Origin: a virus
IMG/VR virus record: IMGVR_UViG_3300021425_000041
Span: 1 to 58,804 of that record
DNA: 58,804 nucleotides
Strand: one strand, 5' to 3'
The notes below the pieces were generated by a model that saw nothing but the letters and a program-made list of their open reading frames with translations, was not told the origin of the DNA and ran no database searches. Below are positions 1,882 through 55,738 of this stretch, piece after piece. A program made the translations under genes and the position numbers. The stretch's first letter is position 1. The number at the start of each line of letters is the position of its first letter.

Positions 1882-2807
1882 TGGGGATTTCCGAGCAAAA
1901 ACTACTTGCCTTGTTGCAGAAGGTATTGGGTGAAGGTAAAATCGTCTCTAAAGACGAAGCTATGTTTGTGTGTCCGTTTTCTCATCACAGAAAACCAAAG
2001 TTGGCAGTAAATTTATCTACACAAAGATGGCAAAGTTGGATTGATACAAATGCCAAAGGTCGTAGTATCTTTGCGTTATTCAAGAGGTTACAAGTTCCAA
2101 GCAACTATTTTGCTGAGTTATCCCGTATTGTTAAACTTCCAAAAAACTCAACCCTGGCAGACACCGAAGAACAATATGTTTCGTTGCCTTATGAGTTTAA
2201 AAGATTGACCGAAACGCATACGGATTTTTCATATGCAAAAGCAATGAAGTATTTAAAAAATCGTGGAATTGAATCTTATGATATAGAACGATATGATATT
2301 GGATATTGTGATAAAGGAGATTACGCAGGAAGAATCATTGTTCCATCGTATGATGTAGATAATAAATTAAATTATTTTCTAGCAAGAGATTTTACGGGTA
2401 ATGCTTATTTAAAATACAAAAATCCTCCTGTTAGTAAAGATGTGGTTGTATTTGAAAATCAAATTGATTTCTCTGAACCACTTATTTTGTGCGAAGGTGT
2501 ATTTGATGCTATGGCAATTCGTAGAAATGCTATTGCTTTACTTGGAAAGAATATTCCAAACAAATTAAAAATGCGACTTGTTCAACATGGTGTAAAAGAA
2601 GTCAGCATTGTATTAGATAATGATGCGTTTAAAAATGCGTTGTATTTATCAGAATCACTTATGAATGATAACATCAAAGTGAGATTAGTCAGAATGGGAT
2701 CAGAAGATGCCGCCGACTTGGGTTTTAAAAAGGTTATAGAAAGAATCAACTCAACCGACATTTTAGATTTTGGTCAGTTGATGCAACAGAAGTTATGCTT
2801 GAATTAA
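1881..2807 (+). CDS. gp61: DNA primase, gp61-like, with degenerate zinc ribbon
   Basis: This 308-residue primase has an N-terminal zinc-ribbon-like segment (residues 31-63) and a Toprim domain. The Toprim motifs are LILCEGVFDAMA (catalytic Glu) and SIVLDNDAF (DxD-like metal site). Primases of T4-like phages make the RNA primers for lagging-strand synthesis with a gp41-type helicase. The ribbon keeps the family pattern CPF..H.KPKL...W..W but only Cys31 remains. The other ligand positions appear as Ser34, Ser52 and Asp55, so zinc binding is doubtful. An upstream TTG is in frame, but the ATG overlapping the preceding stop by one base (TGATG) is preferred and implies translational coupling. The 3' end overlaps gp47 by 13 nt. 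Confidence 0.75.
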   Translation: MGISEQKLLALLQKVLGEGKIVSKDEAMFVCPFSHHRKPKLAVNLSTQRWQSWIDTNAKGRSIFALFKRLQVPSNYFAELSRIVKLPKNSTLADTEEQYVSLPYEFKRLTETHTDFSYAKAMKYLKNRGIESYDIERYDIGYCDKGDYAGRIIVPSYDVDNKLNYFLARDFTGNAYLKYKNPPVSKDVVVFENQIDFSEPLILCEGVFDAMAIRRNAIALLGKNIPNKLKMRLVQHGVKEVSIVLDNDAFKNALYLSESLMNDNIKVRLVRMGSEDAADLGFKKVIERINSTDILDFGQLMQQKLCLN

Positions 2808-3499
2808 AAAATAAGTTAAAGAATGTAGAAAAAGTATATCACCTAGCAGACATTCACATTCGCAATGTAAAACGTCACACCGAGTATTCAACCGTGTTTG
2901 ACAATTTCTATGAACAAGTAAAATCTGACAACTACGAAAATGCTATTATTTTTATTGGTGGAGATATTGCTCATGCCAAAACAGAAATGTCCCCCGAACT
3001 TATTCAACAAATTTCAAACTTTCTTCGTAAATGTTCTCAATTACATCCTACTATTGTAATTGCGGGTAATCACGATTGTAATTTAAATAATCCTGATCGT
3101 CTTGATGTACTATCTCCAATTATGAGCATGATGGACGATGACAATTTATATTATTTAAAAGATACTGGTGTGTACAAAATAGGTGATGTAGCAATAAGTG
3201 TATTTGGTATTTTTGAAGAACCAACTGAATATATACACGGAGACGAAATAGATGATCCTTCAATTAACACAAAAATTGCAGTATATCACGGAGCAATAAG
3301 ACGAAGCACAACTGATGTTGGATATATTGTAGTTGGTGGTGATTTGACTCTTCCTCAATTTGATGGATATGATATTGTTATGCTTGGTGATATTCACAAG
3401 TATCAGGTATTACAAGAATATAAAACTGAGCATAGATTTATTCCAGAAAGTAAACTTGATTCGTATAAATTAGATGGGTGGGACATTTGCAATGAATAG
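2795..3499 (+). CDS. gp47: gp47-like SbcD/Mre11 nuclease, N-terminal catalytic part of a split gene
   Basis: The 234-residue product carries the metallophosphoesterase motifs of SbcD/Mre11: ADIH (residues 18-21), GGDIAHAK, GNHDCN, YHGA and GDIHK. T4 gp47 is about 339 residues and acts with gp46 in double-strand-break resection and recombination-dependent replication. Here the homology stops abruptly after LGDIHKYQVLQEY. The last roughly 25 residues look unrelated, then a TAG stop follows. The rest of gp47 (beginning around NKPVVVYSGS.IQQNHGE) is encoded almost 1 kb downstream at the start of the 4357 gene. All catalytic motifs are on this fragment, so a split, reassembling nuclease is possible. 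The end overlaps the inserted glycosyltransferase-like gene by 8 nt. Confidence 0.75.
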   Translation: MLELKNKLKNVEKVYHLADIHIRNVKRHTEYSTVFDNFYEQVKSDNYENAIIFIGGDIAHAKTEMSPELIQQISNFLRKCSQLHPTIVIAGNHDCNLNNPDRLDVLSPIMSMMDDDNLYYLKDTGVYKIGDVAISVFGIFEEPTEYIHGDEIDDPSINTKIAVYHGAIRRSTTDVGYIVVGGDLTLPQFDGYDIVMLGDIHKYQVLQEYKTEHRFIPESKLDSYKLDGWDICNE

Positions 3500-4367
3500 A
3501 TTTTTAATAAAGTGCGAAAATCTTGACATCGGTGATGTATTATTTGCAAGTAGCATTGCAAAAAAAATTAAGCAAGAAAATCCTCCGTGTGAAGTTGACT
3601 TTAATGTAAATTATTTACAAACACTTGAGTTGATGAGTAACAATCCATATATAGATAATGTATATTACAAAAATAATGGTAGTGACTATACAACAACGCA
3701 TCTGTTAAACAAAAGTAGTCACGACTTGGATGTATCCACTTCCGTTGTATCACAATATCAACAAATGTGTGGAATAAAAAGTTTCGACGATACCTTTGAA
3801 ATTTTTACAAATCAAACCAGTGACTACGCAATTGAGTCTAGCATGAAAGAGTTAATTGAAATTGAATATTGGAATTCAGATATAATAAAAATATGCTATG
3901 TAATGGATTGGGATAGAAAAAGTTATTTACTGGATGATTATGATGATATACCAAATACAAGAAACACCCACTCAATAATAGAATGTTTAAAAAATGATGA
4001 TAAAATAATTTTATTTGCGATTGGAATTGAATCAAGGGATTCCAAGAATTTTCCGAGTATAAACTCATCGAGTAAGTTTTGTTTTACGGCAAGTTTAATA
4101 AAAAACTCTGATTATGTAATTGGTCCCGAGGGTTGTTTAACTAATATGTCAGCTGCACTTGATGTAAATACTATTATTACAACCGATTACATTCAGTATA
4201 CTTATGGACCAAATGGAACTAAAACCGATAAAACAAAAAATTATACAGAACCATTTTTAGGTCCTTTAAAATACTTTCCAAATGGAAATCATATTCACCT
4301 TGATCCATATTTGAGTGATCGTGAAGTAGGAGAAGAAGTTTTAAAAATTGTGACAGATGGAAGATAA
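3492..4367 (+). CDS. Glycosyltransferase family 9-like protein inserted in gp47
   Basis: The 291-residue protein resembles ADP-heptose:LPS heptosyltransferases (GT9). The N-terminus has a beta strand followed by IGDVLFASSIAKKIK (residues 13-27), as in the family's first Rossmann loop. Near residues 203-226 is IKNSDYVIGPEGCLTNMSAA, like the GT9 donor-binding segment IGPxSG..H.AaA, with the usual His replaced. GT-B enzymes transfer sugars to glycans. Here the role could be modification of host surface glycan or of phage components, or the enzyme may be degenerate. It sits exactly between the two halves of gp47, an unusual place for a cargo gene. I chose the ATG at 3492 because the family starts there. 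A copy of the repeated hairpin lies at codons 96-105. Function is moderately uncertain. Confidence 0.5.
   Translation: MNRFLIKCENLDIGDVLFASSIAKKIKQENPPCEVDFNVNYLQTLELMSNNPYIDNVYYKNNGSDYTTTHLLNKSSHDLDVSTSVVSQYQQMCGIKSFDDTFEIFTNQTSDYAIESSMKELIEIEYWNSDIIKICYVMDWDRKSYLLDDYDDIPNTRNTHSIIECLKNDDKIILFAIGIESRDSKNFPSINSSSKFCFTASLIKNSDYVIGPEGCLTNMSAALDVNTIITTDYIQYTYGPNGTKTDKTKNYTEPFLGPLKYFPNGNHIHLDPYLSDREVGEEVLKIVTDGR
3777..3806 (+). repeat. Repeated hairpin element, copy 1 (inside glycosyltransferase-like gene)
   Basis: AAAAGTTTC and GAAATTTTT arms flank a 12-nt loop GACGATACCTTT. The arms pair throughout if a G-U wobble is allowed. It matches copies at 13370-13398 and 49524-49552, with one extra T in the loop. 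Read in the gene frame it encodes KSFDDTFEIF. Confidence 0.7.
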
Positions 4368-6957
4368 AGAAAATTATATAAAAATAACAAGACACAATAA
4401 GAATAAACCTGTTGTGGTTTATTCTGGTAGCATGATTCAACAGAATCATGGAGAAAAACCTTATGGCCATGGTTATGTATTATGGGACGTACCAAAAAGA
4501 AAACACACACACCACGAAGTTCAAAATGATTATGGATATTATACAATCGAGGTTCGCGATGGTAAATGTGTAAGTGATCTTAGTAAACTTCCAAAAAAAG
4601 CAAGATTGCGTGTAAAGGTATTTAATACAACGGCAACTGAGACTAAAGAAATTATTGCAGAGATTCGTAAGCAAACTAACATAACAGATTTAAATGTAAC
4701 AAGATGCGATGCTATATCTGAGGCAAAAAAGTTTGATCGTGATAATAAATTTGACTTTGGTGACATTTCACTCGTTCAAGTTCAAAATGATTTAATAGAA
4801 GATTATCTTCGTAGAAATTTTGTCGTTGATGACGACCAGATCAAAACTGCTTTAGATATTAACAAAGAAGTTAATGATAAACTCGTAGTAAAAGAAGTTC
4901 TACGTAATTGTATTTGGAAACCAAAGAAGTTTGAGTTTGGGAATATGTTTAGTTACGGTGATGGAAATGTAATTGACTTTTCAAATATGAAAAGTGTTAT
5001 GGGATTATTTGCATCAAATGCAAGTGGAAAAAGTAGTGTAATGAGTGCATTGAGTTTTTGCTTATTTGATAAATGTGATCGTGCGTTCAAGGCATCTCAT
5101 GTTCTTAACACTCAAACCGAATCATTTTATTGTAAACTAAACTTTGAAATAGGTGGAGTAGATTATTTTATTGATCGTCAAGCAACAACAAAGAAAAATG
5201 GTGATGTAACTGTTGTGGTAGACTTTTGGAAGCATGATGCTGACGGTAATACGATATCATTGAATGGAGAGCAACGAGCAGGAACAAATGCCATAATCCG
5301 TGATCATGTAGGTTCGTATGATGACTTTGTTTTGACTACATTAAGTTTGCAAAATAATAATGCAATTTTTATAGACAAAAGTCAAAGTGAAAGAAAAGAT
5401 TTACTTGCTCAATTTATGGGTATAGATACTTTTGATCAATTACACTCAACTGCATCTGAAGATATCAAAGAAATTAATGCTTTGTTAAAAAGATTTAATC
5501 GTGAAGACTTCGATGAAACTCTTGCCGAAGTTAAAGAAAAACTTGACAATGTAAATCAACAATATAATGAACAGGATAGCAAGACTAACATTGCACTTCT
5601 TGAGCAAAAAAGATTAAACAAAGAACTTGCTGACAAAAATGCTTTATTTAAAACCTGTTCATTTGATAAAAATGCAGTTGATATAGACAAACTAGAATTT
5701 AATAAAAATAATTTAAAAGATAGACTTTATGTCGCAAACGAAAATAGGGAAGATGAATCCACAAGAAAAAAGAATTTAAATAAGCAGAAAAAGGAATATA
5801 CAAATAAAATTAATGAATTAAATGGTGTAAATGAAAAATATATCGAAGTATTAAAAGTTCGTGAAGAAATAACTAAAGTTGATAAAGATTTGGCAGTATT
5901 AAGAACTTCAGTTAATGCTAAACTTGATAAATTGAAGCATTATGATAGTCATGAATATGATCCAAAGTGTAAATTTTGTGTTACAAATTCTAAAAACTTA
6001 ATTGAAAGTGCTGAACAAACGAAAATTGAACTTGATACGGATAAAGCAGCTGCTGATGAACTTGTTACTCAGAAAAATGATTTAACAAAAATATTAGATG
6101 ACAACAAAGACACAGAATCGAATTACGAATTATTGAATGATTTAAAAAATAAATCTTCACAAATAATATTTGAAATCAATGAAGCAGATTCAAAAGTTCT
6201 TGCACTATCTAGTATGATTCAATCTCTTGAAAAGGATATAGTTTTAAATGATAAAAATATTACAGAATATTATGAATGCAAAGATATAATTGAATTTAAT
6301 AAAAATCTTCAAGTTGAAGTAGATGAATTGCAAAATAAACTATCAGATGTAAATGCGATTGTAAACGCAGAAACAGAAAAACTTCAAACTTTATTTGGTG
6401 AAGTTAAAATTGTTGAAAAAGAACATGAAGATATTCTTGCTTCTATCGAAGAAGCAAAAGGATATGAACGAAAAAAACGAGGATACGAACTTTATCTTGA
6501 TGCAGTTAAACGAGACGGTATATCATACGAACTTATTTCTAAAACCATCCCGAGCATTGAAAGTGAAGTTAATAACATTCTTTCTCAAATCGTTGATTTC
6601 GGTATGAATCTTGAAATGGATGGAAAGCACATTTATTCTAAGATTACATATGAAGACCGTCACTGGCCACTTGAGATGTGTAGTGGTATGGAACGATTCA
6701 TAAGCAGTATTGCAATGCGTGTAGCACTTATCAATGTAAGCAGTCTTCCTCGTTCTAATTTCCTTGTTATTGACGAAGGGTGGGGTACATTAGACGGAGA
6801 CAATATCAGTAGTGTATTTAATTTATTTACTTATCTAAAAGGTCAGTTTGAGTTCATCATGGTCATTAGTCATTTGGATGTTATGCGAGATATGGTAGAC
6901 GAAATTGTAGAAATTCAAAAAGAAGGTTCATTTAGTAAGATAAAATACGGAGCATAA
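4357..6957 (+). CDS. gp46: Fusion of gp47 C-terminal part with gp46 (SbcC/Rad50-like ATPase)
   Basis: The 866-residue protein starts with about 20 unplaced residues. Residues 13-180 then match the capping region of gp47/SbcD (NKPVVVYSGS, QQNHGE, LWDV, NDYGYYTI). After that comes a complete gp46/Rad50-type ATPase. A P-loop ASNASGKSS is at 219-227, with Ala in place of the usual first Gly. Long coiled coils flank a zinc hook CKFC at 538-541. An ABC signature CSGME is at 775-779 and Walker B FLVIDEG at 802-808. SMC-like gp46 drives DNA end processing with gp47. In T4 the two genes are separate. The ATG overlaps the preceding gene by 11 nt, and no strong ribosome site is visible, so the exact start is uncertain. 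Confidence 0.8.
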   Translation: MEDKENYIKITRHNKNKPVVVYSGSMIQQNHGEKPYGHGYVLWDVPKRKHTHHEVQNDYGYYTIEVRDGKCVSDLSKLPKKARLRVKVFNTTATETKEIIAEIRKQTNITDLNVTRCDAISEAKKFDRDNKFDFGDISLVQVQNDLIEDYLRRNFVVDDDQIKTALDINKEVNDKLVVKEVLRNCIWKPKKFEFGNMFSYGDGNVIDFSNMKSVMGLFASNASGKSSVMSALSFCLFDKCDRAFKASHVLNTQTESFYCKLNFEIGGVDYFIDRQATTKKNGDVTVVVDFWKHDADGNTISLNGEQRAGTNAIIRDHVGSYDDFVLTTLSLQNNNAIFIDKSQSERKDLLAQFMGIDTFDQLHSTASEDIKEINALLKRFNREDFDETLAEVKEKLDNVNQQYNEQDSKTNIALLEQKRLNKELADKNALFKTCSFDKNAVDIDKLEFNKNNLKDRLYVANENREDESTRKKNLNKQKKEYTNKINELNGVNEKYIEVLKVREEITKVDKDLAVLRTSVNAKLDKLKHYDSHEYDPKCKFCVTNSKNLIESAEQTKIELDTDKAAADELVTQKNDLTKILDDNKDTESNYELLNDLKNKSSQIIFEINEADSKVLALSSMIQSLEKDIVLNDKNITEYYECKDIIEFNKNLQVEVDELQNKLSDVNAIVNAETEKLQTLFGEVKIVEKEHEDILASIEEAKGYERKKRGYELYLDAVKRDGISYELISKTIPSIESEVNNILSQIVDFGMNLEMDGKHIYSKITYEDRHWPLEMCSGMERFISSIAMRVALINVSSLPRSNFLVIDEGWGTLDGDNISSVFNLFTYLKGQFEFIMVISHLDVMRDMVDEIVEIQKEGSFSKIKYGA

Positions 6958-12744: not shown

Positions 12745-13371
12745 ATGGCTAAAATGGATAAAGATGACTTAAAGTACGTTATTAAACGATCAAAAAAACT
12801 ATTCGAAGGTGAAGAGATACCAAAAGTACATGGGTACGAAGGTGAAAAAGAAGAAGTCAAGATTCGTGCAGTTGGTGAAATATGGACCGACAAAGACGGA
12901 AAAGAGTGGAAACAAATTGGTGCTAATACTAAAGTCAGAACCGAAACTGTTTTTGATAAATTAAGAAAACTAGCAAGAAGTGCTCCAAATTGTCCTAAAG
13001 AAGTTTGTACGTGTGATACTACTAAATTCTTAGATAAACGAATGGTTGCTATGAAAGGATTGTGTTTTGATTGTGTCCAAGAATACGAGCAGAAGTTAAA
13101 AGATGAAGGAAAGTACGAAGACTACGAAAGAAAGACAATGCTTGAGAATGAAAAAAGTTTTTTACTAGATGCTAAAATCAAAATGGGTGAATCTAAACAT
13201 TACATTGAAAATGATCCTCAATTTCTAAATGAAGATGGTTCTCTTGAAAAATGGAATATACCCGAGAAGTCTAAACTGCTAGATGAACTTAATGCTGACA
13301 TCGTAGAAGTTGATGACCGAATTAAGAGTATTGAAAAAGAACTTGAAGAATTTTCACAATGTGATTTTTAA
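12745..13371 (+). CDS. Cysteine-cluster protein before terminase, unknown
   Basis: The middle of this 208-residue protein has CPKEVCTC and, about 24 residues later, CFDC, a possible zinc-binding site. The flanks are charged and helical, and the C-terminal 60 residues form a likely coiled coil (LLDELNADIVEVDDRIKSIEKELEE). It lies directly upstream of the large terminase, where T4 places gp16. It does not resemble T4 gp16 by eye, so a small-terminase or packaging role is a positional guess only. It has its own sigma70-like promoter and probably a leaderless mRNA. The stop codon overlaps the repeated hairpin element. Confidence 0.6.
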   Translation: MAKMDKDDLKYVIKRSKKLFEGEEIPKVHGYEGEKEEVKIRAVGEIWTDKDGKEWKQIGANTKVRTETVFDKLRKLARSAPNCPKEVCTCDTTKFLDKRMVAMKGLCFDCVQEYEQKLKDEGKYEDYERKTMLENEKSFLLDAKIKMGESKHYIENDPQFLNEDGSLEKWNIPEKSKLLDELNADIVEVDDRIKSIEKELEEFSQCDF

Positions 13372-13398
13372 AAGTTTCGACGATACCTTGAAACTTTT
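13370..13398 (+). repeat. Repeated hairpin element, copy 2 (intergenic)
   Basis: AAAAGTTTC and GAAACTTTT arms with an 11-nt loop GACGATACCTT, followed by TATATT. The stem is perfect and could act as a terminator after the 12745 gene. The loop is shared with copies at 3777 and 49524, which argues for more than termination. Confidence 0.75.
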
Positions 13399-13423
13399 TA
13401 TATTATAGAAAATTAAATACATA

Positions 13424-13432
13424 TATATTTAT
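13424..13432 (+). promoter_or_regulatory. Putative late promoter element of the terminase gene
   Basis: Exact TATATTTAT, ending 5 nt before the ATG at 13438. There is no ribosome site, so transcription from this element would give a leaderless or nearly leaderless mRNA. Confidence 0.6.
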
Positions 13433-13437
13433 TCTTA

Positions 13438-15039
13438 ATGGCAGGTAATCAAAAAGTACCATTAAGAGAAATAATAAAGCAAGAGTATACAGAGTGTTTG
13501 AAGTCACCTATATACTTTATGAAAAAGTATTGTAAAATCCAACATCCGACCTTGGGTACGATACCATTCCACTTATATGAGTTTCAAGAAAAAACACTTG
13601 AAAGTTTTAAAGACGAGCAATTTAATATTGTATTAAAAGCAAGACAAATGGGAATATCCACTCTTGTATCGGGATATGCATTGTGGTTGATGACCTTTTT
13701 TACGGATAAAAGTATTCTTTGTATTGCTATCAACCAAGAAACTGCGAAAAACATTGTTACAAAAGTAACTCATATGTCTGAACATTTACCAAGTTGGTTA
13801 CGTAGTGAATGTACAGAAAAAAATAAACTCAGTATGCGTTTTAAAAACGGAAGTAATATTCGTGCGGCCTCAAGTAGTGTAGATGCTTCTCGTTCATCAT
13901 CATTGAGTTTACTTATCGTGGACGAGTGTGCGTTTATATCAAACATGGAAGATATATGGACTGCATCACAATCTACAATTACAACGGGTGGTCGTTCTAT
14001 TCTATTATCAACTCCAAATGGTATCGGTAACTTTTTCCACAAAACTTGGGTTGGGTCTATGGATGGATCAAATGACTTTAATCCAATTAATTTGCATTGG
14101 TCATTGCATCCTGAACGTGATCAAAAGTGGAGAGACCTACAAACAAAAGTTCTTGGAGAAAAGGATGCAGCCCAAGAGTGTGATTGTGACTTTATCAGTA
14201 GTGGTCGTTCGGTGGTGGATGCAAGTTTAATTGAATGGTACAAAGAAAGCACGATGCGCGAACCAGTAGAAAAAAGAGGAGCAAACAAAGAATATTGGAT
14301 ATGGGAATATCCAAATCATAACAAAGATTATGTAGTTGCGGCCGATGTTGCGAGAGGAGATGGACGAGATAAAAGTGCTTTTCATGTATTTGATGTAGAA
14401 GGTGTAAGGCAAGTTGCTGAGTTTAAGGGTGAGGTAGAAACAAAAGATTTTGGTAATTTATTGGTTGCGGTTGCAAGTGAGTTCAACGGAGCATTGTTGG
14501 TAGTGGAAAATGCAAATATAGGTTGGGCAGTTTTGCAACAAATTATAGATAAAGGATACAACAATTTATATTACACTCAAAGAGACTATCAATACATAGA
14601 TGAGTTTTCACAACATACAAATAAATTAAATAGAATGGAGAAGAAACAGGTACCTGGATTTACAACATCTATTAAAACTCGTCCACTAATTATCAGTAAA
14701 ATGGAACAATATGTTCGTGAAAAAGAAGTTGAAATTGTATCAGAAAGAACATTAGAAGAACTTTTTACATTTGTATGGAACGGACAAAAAGCAGAAGCAA
14801 TGCAAGGATATAATGATGATTTGGTTATGAGTTTATGTATTGCACTTTGGGTTCGTGATACTGCATTACGATTTCGTTCGGAAAATATTGAAACACAAAA
14901 AAGTTTATTTGATTATATGGGAAGTACAACTAACATGGATGCTGGTAAAAATTATCGTCAAAATGGACTTGAATCAAATCCATATGAAATGAAGAACCCA
15001 CGTGGAGGAACTGAAAGTTTAGATTGGTTGCTTCAATAA
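13438..15039 (+). CDS. gp17: Terminase large subunit (DNA-packaging ATPase/nuclease)
   Basis: The 533-residue product has the two-domain layout of T4 gp17 (610 residues). The ATPase domain has a variant P-loop, LKARQMGIST (66-75). The Walker lysine of T4's RQLGKTT is replaced by Ile73, and a lysine sits at 67 instead, as in terminases of the KxRQxGxS type. Walker B and the catalytic Glu are LLIVDECAF, and a coupling motif STPNG follows. The RNase H-like nuclease domain has Asp in VAADVARGDG, Glu in LVVENAN and Asp in YNDDLVMS. The enzyme pumps DNA through the portal and cuts concatemers. A lipoprotein gene separates it from the portal gene. Confidence 0.93.
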   Translation: MAGNQKVPLREIIKQEYTECLKSPIYFMKKYCKIQHPTLGTIPFHLYEFQEKTLESFKDEQFNIVLKARQMGISTLVSGYALWLMTFFTDKSILCIAINQETAKNIVTKVTHMSEHLPSWLRSECTEKNKLSMRFKNGSNIRAASSSVDASRSSSLSLLIVDECAFISNMEDIWTASQSTITTGGRSILLSTPNGIGNFFHKTWVGSMDGSNDFNPINLHWSLHPERDQKWRDLQTKVLGEKDAAQECDCDFISSGRSVVDASLIEWYKESTMREPVEKRGANKEYWIWEYPNHNKDYVVAADVARGDGRDKSAFHVFDVEGVRQVAEFKGEVETKDFGNLLVAVASEFNGALLVVENANIGWAVLQQIIDKGYNNLYYTQRDYQYIDEFSQHTNKLNRMEKKQVPGFTTSIKTRPLIISKMEQYVREKEVEIVSERTLEELFTFVWNGQKAEAMQGYNDDLVMSLCIALWVRDTALRFRSENIETQKSLFDYMGSTTNMDAGKNYRQNGLESNPYEMKNPRGGTESLDWLLQ

Positions 15040-15728: not shown

Positions 15729-17579
15729 ATGGCAGAAGAATCAAGAACAAAAAAACTTTTCGGTGGTCTTAGAAGATTATTTTCAACTGGTGTAGTTGTA
15801 CGAAATGTAGGTGGAAAAAAACTAAAAGTTGCAGATACAGATAACTTACAATATTCCAAAAGACTGCGTGACAAGTATGATCGTATGCACACTTTGTATA
15901 GTGATTATGCAAATGGTTTTAATAATCTTGGATTCCAAAGTGCTAGATTAGAGTTATTTAGTGATTATGAAGTAATGGATACCGATCCTATTATTTCAAG
16001 TGCATTAGATATTTACTCAGATGAATCAACTACGAGAAGTGAATTTGGTGAAATTCTAAAAATTACAAGTTCAGATTCTAATGTTAAAGGTATCCTTGAA
16101 AATTTATTTTATGATATATTAAATGTTGAATTTAATTTGTGGGGGTGGATTCGTAATATGTGCAAGTATGGAGATTTTTATTTACATTTAGAAATAGAAC
16201 CCGAATATGGAGTTATGAATGTAAAACCTATTTCTACATATGAAATGACTCGCATAGAAGATTCTGATCCTGAAAATCCACAACTTGTTATTTTCAAACA
16301 AGAAGGTTCTGCTAGAGCAGATTATGAAAACTATGAAATTGCACACTTTAGATTATTAGGTGATACGAATTATTTACCTTATGGTAAAAGTATGGTAGAG
16401 TCTGCGAGACGATCATGGAAGCAACTTCAACTTATGGAAGATGCTATGCTCATTCATAGAATAATGAGAGCACCTGAAAAAAGAATGTTTTACATCGATA
16501 TTGGTAATATCCCACCAAACGAAGTTGATAATTTTATGCAAAAGGTTATCAATAAGATGAAAAAAGTTCCGTTTGTTGACGAAAAAACAGGTGATTACAA
16601 TCTTAAGTTCAATATGCAAAATATGACCGAAGACTTTTTTATGCCAGTTCGTGGTGGTGATAGTGGAACTAGAATTGAAAATCTTGGTGCTATGACTTAT
16701 GACGGAACTGATGACATCGAGTATATTAAAAACAAAATGATGGCTGCACTTAAAGTTCCAAAAGCATTTTTAGGTTATGATGAAAGTATAACAGGTAAAG
16801 CAACATTAGCAGCCGAAGATATAAGATTTGCGAGAACAATTGAGAGACTGCAAAGAATTACAATAAGTGAGTTAACAAAGATTGCGATTGTTCATTTATA
16901 TTCACAAGGTTATACCGATGCTAAGTTGGTAGATTTTAGTTTGAAATTGACTAATCCTTCTACTATTTTTGAAGAAGAACGTGTAAGAATTCTTTCCGAA
17001 AAATTAAATACTGCACGTGATATGATTGATGCTAAGATGTTTTCAAAGAATTGGGTTTATGATAAAATATTTGGATTACCTGAAAATGAAATCAATGAAA
17101 TTAGAAGTGATTTCGTGGACGATGCAAAAGAATTTTTCCGTCTTGAGAGTATTCAAAATGAAGGAAATGATCCTGCAGATCCGAATCAAGCAGTAGATGC
17201 CGATGAAGAAGATAGTTGGGGTTTTGGTAAAATGGATACGCAAACCGAAAAAGACGAAGATGCAATCCACCAAAGAAATAAAGAAGAAAAGAAAAGAAAA
17301 AATGCTAATAAAAAATACGATCATCCTGATGAAAAACCTATGGGAAGAGACCCACTTGGTGCAGATGAAAGACGTGTTAGTGGAAGGGATTGGGGTGACT
17401 CTCCACTTAAACTTGAATCAGACTTAAATAAGTTAGATTCATTCTTAAATAAAAATAAAAAAATAAAAAAAGAATCGGGAATGTCTAAATTAATCTGCGA
17501 AAAAACTAAAGACGAAACGCAAACTACTGAAAAAAAAGAAGTGGATTATCTAGATGATAAAAATATAATTGAAAAATAA
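15729..17579 (+). CDS. gp20: Portal vertex protein
   Basis: The 616-residue protein matches the T4 gp20 type (524 residues) over most of its length. It has the conserved segments YADYANGF-like YSDYANGF, MDTDPIISSALDIYSDE, LPYGKSMVESARR and FLGYDESITGKATLAAEDIRFART. The dodecameric portal occupies one capsid vertex, nucleates prohead assembly, and is the channel for terminase-driven DNA entry and for ejection. The C-terminal tail of about 130 residues is highly charged and lysine-rich, longer than in T4. Start: first ATG after the promoter. Confidence 0.92.
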   Translation: MAEESRTKKLFGGLRRLFSTGVVVRNVGGKKLKVADTDNLQYSKRLRDKYDRMHTLYSDYANGFNNLGFQSARLELFSDYEVMDTDPIISSALDIYSDESTTRSEFGEILKITSSDSNVKGILENLFYDILNVEFNLWGWIRNMCKYGDFYLHLEIEPEYGVMNVKPISTYEMTRIEDSDPENPQLVIFKQEGSARADYENYEIAHFRLLGDTNYLPYGKSMVESARRSWKQLQLMEDAMLIHRIMRAPEKRMFYIDIGNIPPNEVDNFMQKVINKMKKVPFVDEKTGDYNLKFNMQNMTEDFFMPVRGGDSGTRIENLGAMTYDGTDDIEYIKNKMMAALKVPKAFLGYDESITGKATLAAEDIRFARTIERLQRITISELTKIAIVHLYSQGYTDAKLVDFSLKLTNPSTIFEEERVRILSEKLNTARDMIDAKMFSKNWVYDKIFGLPENEINEIRSDFVDDAKEFFRLESIQNEGNDPADPNQAVDADEEDSWGFGKMDTQTEKDEDAIHQRNKEEKKRKNANKKYDHPDEKPMGRDPLGADERRVSGRDWGDSPLKLESDLNKLDSFLNKNKKIKKESGMSKLICEKTKDETQTTEKKEVDYLDDKNIIEK

Positions 17580-49124: not shown

Positions 49125-50426
49125 ATGTTTTTGTGTATTGAAACAAAAGACGATGTAAAGTTATTGAGTGATACTTTAAAAAGTGGAACTGCACTTTTTT
49201 ATTATTTATTTGAACCAAATTATCATCCTGTTTCTAAGAGAGTCTGTGTTGTGTTAATTTATCATTTAGAAACTGATTCACTTTTTTTGATTTCGTTTAG
49301 TCATCCTGATGTAGTTTTAATGGATAAAAATATATTAAACTATATCAACAATAGCAATTGTAAAAGATACATACTAAATAAAAAAGATTCAATGTATGTA
49401 AGTGATGTTAGTTCGTATACTGATATATCATTTGAAATGTATTGTAAGACAGGTAAATTATTTGAATATAAATTGCCACTTAATAATTCTGATATTCGTT
49501 CAATACCAATAATGTTAATTAAAAAAAGTTTCAACGATACCTTGAAACTTTTAAAACCTCATTTAAACACACATGAAAATTGCAACTTTTCGAGTGATTT
49601 ATGTAAAGCATTTTATGAAATTGAAAAGAATGGAGTTTATATAAATCGTGAGGTATATAATTTAGGATCAACTGATTTGATTCACACTAACGGATGTGTG
49701 TATAGTCAATATAACTATTTTACTCCAACTACTCGTCCGAGTAATAGATTTGGAAAAATAAACTTTGCGGCTTTGAATTCAAAGAAAAATGAAAAAGATT
49801 CTATTGAGAGTAGATTTGGTGAAGATGGTATTTTGTTTATGGTTGATTATGAAAGTTATCACTTGAGATTGTTTGCTGATCATATAAACTTTTCATTACC
49901 TGAATCTTCTTTGCATGAATATTTCGGAAAGTTTTATTACGATAAAGAAGAGTTAACTGAAGAAGAATACGAGATGTCTAAAAAAATTACATTTAACTTA
50001 ATTTATGGTGGAATCTCTGATGATGTAAAAGAACACATCCCCTTTATGGCCGAAGTTGTAAAATATGTAGAATCAAGTTGGGCATCATTTAATAAAAACG
50101 GATACATTGAAACTTGGTTATACAATCGTAAATTATACAAAGAAAACTATGATTCAATGAATTCATATAAACTTTTTAATTATTTACTACAAAGTGCCGA
50201 AACTGAAAGAAATACAAAATTAGCATTGTATCTTAATGGTGAATTTTCAAAATTAAAAAGCAAAGTAATTTTATATCATTATGATGCATTTATAGTTGAT
50301 TTACATAAGTCTGAAATTTCACATACAAAAAAAATTATTGAAAATCTTACAGATAATAATAAATTTCCTTTGAGAGTTTATATCGGTAAAAATTATGGAG
50401 ATATGTCTAAGTTAAGTGTTTGCTAA
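49125..50426 (+). CDS. Small divergent family-A DNA polymerase
   Basis: This 433-residue protein has polymerase I-type motifs in the C-terminal 250 residues: a motif A region MVDYESYHLRLFADH (Asp241; Glu of DYSQIELR replaced by His246), motif B KKITFNLIYGG (Lys286, Tyr294) and motif C YHYDAF (Asp387). The upstream YFTPTTRPSNRFGKINFAALN corresponds to the TGRLSSxxPNLQN region. The N-terminal 150 residues could be a reduced exonuclease-like domain, but no DxE motif is apparent. T4 uses a family-B polymerase (gp43). A separate family-A polymerase is known in the distant T4 relative RM378 of Rhodothermus. A copy of the repeated hairpin lies inside the gene at codons 134-143. Confidence 0.7.
   Translation: MFLCIETKDDVKLLSDTLKSGTALFYYLFEPNYHPVSKRVCVVLIYHLETDSLFLISFSHPDVVLMDKNILNYINNSNCKRYILNKKDSMYVSDVSSYTDISFEMYCKTGKLFEYKLPLNNSDIRSIPIMLIKKSFNDTLKLLKPHLNTHENCNFSSDLCKAFYEIEKNGVYINREVYNLGSTDLIHTNGCVYSQYNYFTPTTRPSNRFGKINFAALNSKKNEKDSIESRFGEDGILFMVDYESYHLRLFADHINFSLPESSLHEYFGKFYYDKEELTEEEYEMSKKITFNLIYGGISDDVKEHIPFMAEVVKYVESSWASFNKNGYIETWLYNRKLYKENYDSMNSYKLFNYLLQSAETERNTKLALYLNGEFSKLKSKVILYHYDAFIVDLHKSEISHTKKIIENLTDNNKFPLRVYIGKNYGDMSKLSVC
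49524..49552 (+). repeat. Repeated hairpin element, copy 3 (inside polymerase gene)
   Basis: AAAAGTTTC, loop AACGATACCTT, GAAACTTTT: identical to copy 2 at 28 of 29 positions. In the gene frame it encodes KSFNDTLKLL, the same phase as copy 1 (KSFDDTFEIF). Confidence 0.75.
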
Positions 50427-54173: not shown

Positions 54174-55738
54174 TGGGAATTGCATGGGAAAGTCATAGTT
54201 TAAATGAAGGAGTTTGTCCAGAGTTGGCTGCTCTTATACCTGAGTGTTTACAAGCCTGCTACGACAATGGACTTGATCCGTATCCATTGTGTATTGAAGA
54301 ATTTGATGCAGACGAAATAGTTGAAATTGCGGCCTATGGTGGATTTCCTGTTCGTTATCCTCATTTTAATTTCGGACAACAATTTGAACAACTTCATTAT
54401 CAGTATCATCATGGCATGGGTAAGATTTATGAAATGGTTGTAAATACAGACCCAACATATATGTATCTGCAAAGAAATAATCCTATTGTTGATAATTTAA
54501 CTGTTGTAGCACACGCAACGGCTCATAGTGATTTCTTTAAGAACAATATTATGTTCAAGCACACGAATCGTAATATGATGAATGTTATGGCAAATCATAG
54601 TGATAAAATTCGTATGTATATGGATCGTTTTGGTCGTAAAAAAGTAAAAGACTTTTTGAATGCGGCCTTAGCAATTGATGATTTAATTGATCCTTCACTT
54701 TGCTATCGTGAAAGTAATTTGAAGAAAGCAACTAAGTTTAACTTCGAAGATCGTCAACCACGTGAACACGTAACTCGTCTTGATACAAAAGAATATATGG
54801 ACAAGTATGTAAATCCTTCTCATTATATTGAAAAGCAAAGAAGAGAACGTGAAGAACGACAAAAGTTAGCAGAAAACAAATTTCCATTGCAACCTGAACG
54901 TGATATCATGTTGATGATTATAAATCATTGTCGTTTAGAACCTTGGCAACAAAACATACTTAGCATGATTCGTGATGAAGCAATTTATTATCGTCCACAA
55001 GGAATGACAAAAGTTCTCAACGAGGGTTGGGCAAGTTATTGGGATTCTTATATTATGGCAACTTGTAATTTTGCCGGAGACGATGGAATATTCGATTATG
55101 CAAAACACCATGCAGGAGTTTTAGGTGGAAAGTATAATATGAACAATCCGTATAAACTTGGAAATACATTATTGCGTGACATTGAAGACCGTTGGAACAA
55201 AGGTAAATTCGGTAAAGAATATGAAATGTGTGACAATGGTGATGAAAAAAGATATTGGAATAAGAACCTAAATCTTGGTCGTGAAAAACTTTATGAAGTT
55301 CGTGAGAACTATAATGATGTTACATTTCTCAATGAGTTTTTTACAAAGGATTTTTGCGAAAAACATGAGTACTTTGAATATGCATTAGATAAGTCAAAAA
55401 ACAAGTATGTCGTTGTTAGTAAAGATTACAAAAAGATAAAAGAAAAACTTATCAATCGTCATATTAACATGGGAAGACCTGTAATTTATATGGAAAACAT
55501 GAAATATAAGAACACAGAGATTTTATTAAGACACGACTTTGAAGGCAGACCTTTGGATATTAAATATGCAACTGGTACAATGGCATATCTACATGAAATA
55601 ATGAAGAAACCAATAAATCTATTAACATACGATGTTGAAGAAGAAGGATATGGTTCTTCAAAAGAAATTGTTGAAGTTGAAGTCCGTTATCGATACAATA
55701 ACGGAGAAATGAAAAGATTTGAAGGTAGTAAGATTTAA
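54173..55738 (+). CDS. spoVR: SpoVR/YcgB family protein
   Basis: The 521-residue product spans the full family (E. coli YcgB has 510). Recognisable blocks are YPHFNFGQQFEQLHYQYHHGMGKIYEMVVNTDP, YLQRNNPIVDNLTVVAHATAHSDFF, EPWQQNILSMIRDEAIYYRPQG and LNEGWASYWDSYIM. The His/Glu-rich conserved patches suggest metal binding, but no activity is established. In Bacillus SpoVR affects the spore cortex; in enterobacteria YcgB is co-regulated with YeaGH. The ATG overlaps the previous stop by one base (TAATG) and has AGGAGG 10 nt upstream, so the pair is translationally coupled. Confidence 0.92.
   Translation: MGIAWESHSLNEGVCPELAALIPECLQACYDNGLDPYPLCIEEFDADEIVEIAAYGGFPVRYPHFNFGQQFEQLHYQYHHGMGKIYEMVVNTDPTYMYLQRNNPIVDNLTVVAHATAHSDFFKNNIMFKHTNRNMMNVMANHSDKIRMYMDRFGRKKVKDFLNAALAIDDLIDPSLCYRESNLKKATKFNFEDRQPREHVTRLDTKEYMDKYVNPSHYIEKQRREREERQKLAENKFPLQPERDIMLMIINHCRLEPWQQNILSMIRDEAIYYRPQGMTKVLNEGWASYWDSYIMATCNFAGDDGIFDYAKHHAGVLGGKYNMNNPYKLGNTLLRDIEDRWNKGKFGKEYEMCDNGDEKRYWNKNLNLGREKLYEVRENYNDVTFLNEFFTKDFCEKHEYFEYALDKSKNKYVVVSKDYKKIKEKLINRHINMGRPVIYMENMKYKNTEILLRHDFEGRPLDIKYATGTMAYLHEIMKKPINLLTYDVEEEGYGSSKEIVEVEVRYRYNNGEMKRFEGSKI

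Follow-up and report, generated by a model that had tools for sequence, protein, structure and literature searches.

Results

Three hairpins in the window

The window, that is, the whole stretch of DNA analysed here (58,804 nucleotides), is a 58.8-kb virus record with 33.6% GC. It contains three copies of a hairpin, all on the + strand, which we call sites A, B, and C. Site A (positions 3777-3806, AAAAGTTTCGACGATACCTTTGAAATTTTT) has an 8-nt loop and lies in frame in an open reading frame (3474-4367, + strand) for a hypothetical protein of 297 aa with no Pfam or PHROG match, where it is read as KSFDDTFEIF. The neighbors of this gene are an SbcD-like gene upstream (2795-3499) and an SbcC-like gene downstream (4357-6957). 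Site B (13370-13398, AAAAGTTTCGACGATACCTTGAAACTTTT) is an 11-bp hairpin with the 7-nt loop CGATACC, which starts within the stop codon of the open reading frame at 12745-13371 (+ strand; 208 aa, likewise without a Pfam or PHROG match), with 39 nt between the end of the hairpin and the start of the gene for the terminase large subunit (13438-15039, + strand). Its stem is A+T-rich, and TTTTT follows it directly. Site C (49524-49552, AAAAGTTTCAACGATACCTTGAAACTTTT), likewise an 11-bp hairpin with the 7-nt loop CGATACC, lies in frame in the gene for a family-A DNA polymerase (49125-50426, + strand, 433 aa), starting 399 nt downstream of the initiation codon, and is read as KSFNDTLKLL. The in-frame location of sites A and C within open reading frames, and the placement of site B between a stop codon and the terminase start, were overlooked in the initial annotation. 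Its sequences and coordinates for the three copies were confirmed when the window was re-read, as were the single-base difference between sites B and C and, at site A, the right-arm substitution of T for C that results in a G-U pair; site A also has one extra T in the loop.

The 20-mer shared by the three sites has three exact occurrences in the window, whereas shuffled sequences gave an expectation of 0.01, even with up to three mismatches. The predicted RNA folds of the + strand at sites A, B, and C have energies of -6.8, -8.1, and -8.9 kcal/mol (z of -2.0, -3.9, and -5.7), respectively, and those of sites B and C are far below the shuffled sequences. Among the perfect hairpins of the window and the fetched loci, CGATACC (with its complement) is the sole 7-nt loop that recurs (10 occurrences versus one for any other loop), although this is a description and not a test, since part of the sample was fetched by the motif. 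We also considered GATAC alone as the loop signal and rejected it, because it was not enriched over permuted five-mers. No Rfam family matched anywhere in the window at the gathering score, and no description of the hairpin element was found in the literature.

Two minor features of the window are noted here. A perfect 8-bp hairpin at 55684-55705, near the 3' end of a gene, has the loop CGATACA and arms of the CCGTTAT/ATAACGG type, and is probably due to chance. The polymerase reading frame (49125-50426) is short, at 433 aa, and its matches to family-A polymerase profiles are confined to their C-terminal part; the remainder of the polymerase may be missing or have its coding sequence at another place.

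Distribution of the hairpin in relatives

The hairpin family occurs in a clade of marine bacteriophages distantly related to Flavobacterium phage immuto; the terminase of the window is 52% identical to that of immuto and 53% identical to that of Microcystis phage Mel-JY01. A search of 2.9 million viral contigs with a strict hairpin pattern gave 38 matches, consisting of 29 at site B (23 sense and six inverted), eight at site C (all sense), and one unrelated match, whereas 11 matches were obtained with the reversed control pattern. The long relatives, of 115-170 kb, have A, B, and C as their strong sites, with spacings of about 10 kb and 35-36 kb, and some of these genomes additionally carry a weaker site E. 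Site C has been lost in some lineages (L295-L299), and site A in others (L327 and L336). A scan of the genome and its relatives with a covariance model had been suggested in the initial annotation. Such a model, built from the A, B, and C sites, recovered these sites throughout the clade, whereas seven outgroup records, immuto among them, yielded nothing below an E-value of 0.3. All three copies are at fixed orthologous positions in the clade.

Further copies in relatives and covariation in the arms had been named as the observations on which the initial proposal depended. The former exist, whereas the latter is weak: in 15 chosen sites, 90% of the pair cells are standard pairs, a fraction that no slid register attains, but a two-sided change is seen in a single pair and shuffled sequences reach the covariation score. 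A fourth site (D, 16087-16106, - strand), which matches both the pattern and the model in many relatives, was rejected as a chance resemblance in the conserved portal gene, since its codons vary freely in relatives (the windows rank 235-322 of 610).

Constraint at the three sites

Orthologues of the genes containing sites A and C were fetched by protein, independently of the motif, except for a few in the site C series, which were fetched by the motif or the model. In the polymerase gene, the codons of the hairpin form the nine-codon window with the highest synonymous conservation (z of 3.1, 420 windows) in a comparison that included proteins with identities down to 47%. Polymerases with 43-100% identity form a graded series, from sequences without the motif (ILLKHFKELCSSV) through those with the core alone to those with the full hairpin (IKKSFNDTLKLL), and there are no indels at site C in this series. 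The core-only versions read ILKKFNDTFES and ILKKFNDTLKN, and the core is retained in polymerases of 43-55% identity. Each motif-bearing orthologue folds at site C better than approximately 97-98% of codon-shuffled versions encoding the same peptide, although these values are not independent because the sequences are related.

At site A, the core codons GAT ACC TTT are preserved in about 30 orthologues. GAT is invariant, and ACC is common to 93% of the pairs versus 37% expected, ACC being 11% of the Thr codons. The hairpin windows rank seventh and eighth in the gene for synonymous conservation; the windows that outrank them lie around codon 20 or at the 3' end, the latter overlapping the next gene. 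The arms are degenerate, and the pairing is no better than in codon-shuffled controls (average z of -0.58). In homologues with 31-39% identity, the motif is absent and the alignment is free of gaps.

Site B is noncoding, and here ACGATAC is identical in all 21 of the non-inverted relatives (21/21), whereas the arm positions are 62-100% conserved. In the most diverged site B sequences, one arm has become TTTTAGA and the stop codon has become TAG, with the core unchanged. The remark in the initial annotation that the loop is conserved, although a simple terminator needs no particular loop, agrees with this result, since the invariant part of site B is the loop. A frame-shifted peptide, KSFDDTLKLF, was considered as an explanation of site B and rejected, because the frame and the stop are lost in relatives such as L024, L029, and L101. 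The stretch from site B to the terminase start (13399-13440, TATATTATAGAAAATTAAATACATATATATTTAT) shows strong conservation of its own in relatives and may contain a promoter.

The primary object of conservation is the core rather than the arm. The highest synonymous conservation at site C and the nearly fixed, rare Thr codon ACC at sites A and C indicate that the nucleotides are under selection, chiefly those of the core TTCRANGATACCTT. The folding comparisons support the hairpin structure at sites B and C and do so weakly at site A. Together, these comparisons indicate that the hairpin is a real cis element of the whole clade, selected at three fixed loci, and most likely a candidate recognition site for a phage protein.

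Discussion

A probable recognition site in RNA or DNA

The initial annotation offered, among other readings, a recognition site with a conserved loop. The constraint inside two genes and the invariant core at site B are in favor of this part of the proposal. Our preferred explanation, to which we assign a probability of roughly 0.4, is that the hairpin is a cis-acting recognition site, probably read in the transcript by a phage-encoded protein. The core TTCRANGATACCTT, which is mostly loop, would carry the specificity, and the inverted arms would present the core. The protein, which might be a repressor that binds RNA or an endoribonuclease specific for hairpins, would recognize the hairpin in the transcript, and the fate of three messages, namely those of the polymerase gene and the sbcDC-region gene and the message that runs into the terminase gene, would be tied together. 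We identified no candidate for the binding protein. Sites A and C are in the sense orientation. Furthermore, among the non-Watson-Crick cells of the sense strand, G-U outnumbers A-C by 42:7 at site A, 5:0 at site C, and 8:2 at site B, although protein constraint confounds the count at site A and the sequences are related. These observations favor the action as RNA that was assumed in the initial annotation. However, six contigs carry site B in the inverted orientation, at least two reversals are needed to account for this on the terminase tree, and the inverted site has been kept. The retention of the inverted site, which has a different loop sequence in the sense RNA, argues against reading as RNA. 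Such an inversion could plausibly arise by template switching, the palindrome being near-perfect. The retained inversion says that the orientation of the loop is not essential at site B, or that site B doubles as a terminator.

The same inversions are in favor of a site that functions as DNA, which we regard as almost equally probable. In this explanation, a phage protein would bind the dyad, which consists of two arms of 11 bp and, between them, a conserved, asymmetric center of 7 bp, either as duplex or as an extruded hairpin, with a role in replication, recombination, packaging, or transcription control; site B has flipped at least twice, independently, and has been retained. The inverted hairpin is identical in relatives L104 and L122, although 26% of their fourfold terminase sites differ, and it has an A-C mismatch in the sense RNA. 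However, the intergenic sequence adjoining the inverted site is also conserved, and thus the constancy of the hairpin is not strong evidence. The weaker model matches E, K, and L in relatives are antisense to their genes, as a DNA-level site would permit, but constraint is not supported at site E, for which there are only three distinct versions with variable third positions. Furthermore, sites A and C are always sense, the wobble asymmetry points to sense RNA, and the GC skew does not change sign at site A, B, or C in relative G020. Core sites of tyrosine recombinases, such as lox and dif, consist of inverted arms of about 11 bp around a shared asymmetric center of 6-8 bp, and the hairpins resemble them in the arms and the shared asymmetric center. 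However, the arms at site A are degenerate, and recombination between direct repeats at these positions would delete essential genes. In addition, no Phage_integrase domain (PF00589) was found in ten records and no Resolvase domain (PF00239) in seven, with positive controls that worked in both searches, although the records may be incomplete and a host enzyme might serve instead.

Terminator or mobile element as improbable alternatives

It is improbable that the hairpin is an intrinsic transcription terminator, in which a hairpin and a run of T would end transcription and the shared sequence would be incidental. In favor of this reading, site B begins in a stop codon and has TTTTT directly behind it, and with runs of A and T in the arms and flanks it would work in both directions, which fits the inversions. 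However, sites A and C are not at the ends of transcription units but within the coding sequence of genes that need read-through, and the invariant part is the loop, with which a terminator can dispense. None of the three sites is listed in the consensus terminator scans or reaches their threshold, and other hairpins with T-runs in the relatives have stems richer in G+C and other loops. A plain terminator does not explain sites A and C.

Three near-identical palindromic copies within one genome might suggest a mobile palindrome, which was among the readings of the initial annotation, or a spread of copies by recombination, in either case without function. This is very improbable, because the copies are orthologous clade-wide (37 of the 38 strict matches are at site B or C), and distant homologues lacking the motif align without gaps at sites A and C, showing no empty-site indel and thus indicating that these two are not insertions. 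Furthermore, conservation among proteins that have diverged by about 50% requires either selection or constant homogenisation. The promoter early stem-loops of T4-type phages, which are mobile intergenic cassettes with promoters, are likewise repeated, whereas the sites described here are fixed and two of them are intragenic.

Comparison with known systems

The element is new, although the principle is known. The gene 43 operator of phages T4 and RB69 is an RNA hairpin with a conserved loop, bound by the phage DNA polymerase (PMC3014915). The present hairpins are similar in that the loop sequence is conserved among relatives while the stem can vary, and in that one of the sites (C) is within a polymerase gene. 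However, the operator sits at the start of gene 43, whereas site C, 399 nt inside its gene, neither overlaps nor adjoins the translation start and the other sites are in unrelated genes; moreover, the T4 polymerase belongs to another family than the family-A polymerase found here. The early promoters of phage N4 are three hairpins in DNA that the virion RNA polymerase recognizes (PMC4496689). Again, there are three sites per genome, each with a conserved heptamer between inverted repeats, but the N4 hairpins are short, have a small loop, and drive early genes, whereas the arms are longer here and two sites are intragenic. A search for the T7-type RNA polymerase domain (PF00940) gave no match, but the control genomes gave none either. 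The gene 43 operators and N4 promoters show that the principle exists, and neither matches in position and architecture.

Nucleotide signals that override codon choice inside essential phage genes are seldom recognized from sequence alone. We consider it unlikely that the sites form a clade-wide hairpin code, silent in the polymerase gene and the sbcDC-region gene and placed before the terminase gene, which would coordinate replication, recombination, and packaging. If true, such a link between the genes for the polymerase, recombination, and the terminase would represent a novel means of coordination in phages that have been little studied. With the positions and the core at hand, as well as relatives in which the site is naturally lost, degenerate, or inverted, the question of RNA or DNA is directly testable.

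Weaker matches and associated genes in relatives

The weaker matches in relatives (sites E to L) are in coding sequence and mostly antisense. Site E is the strongest of them, with about 40 bits, and sites K and L come from a single genome. The DNA methylase genes with site E at L384:7515-8447 and L398:14633-15562 encode 100% identical proteins, whereas the terminases of the two phage records that contain these genes differ clearly, being 94% and 87% identical to that of the window. The identity of the methylases despite the differing terminases suggests a recent transfer. In relative G020, L383:13965-15377 encodes a protein with full Glu/Leu/Phe/Val dehydrogenase domains, which makes it an unusual metabolic gene for a phage.
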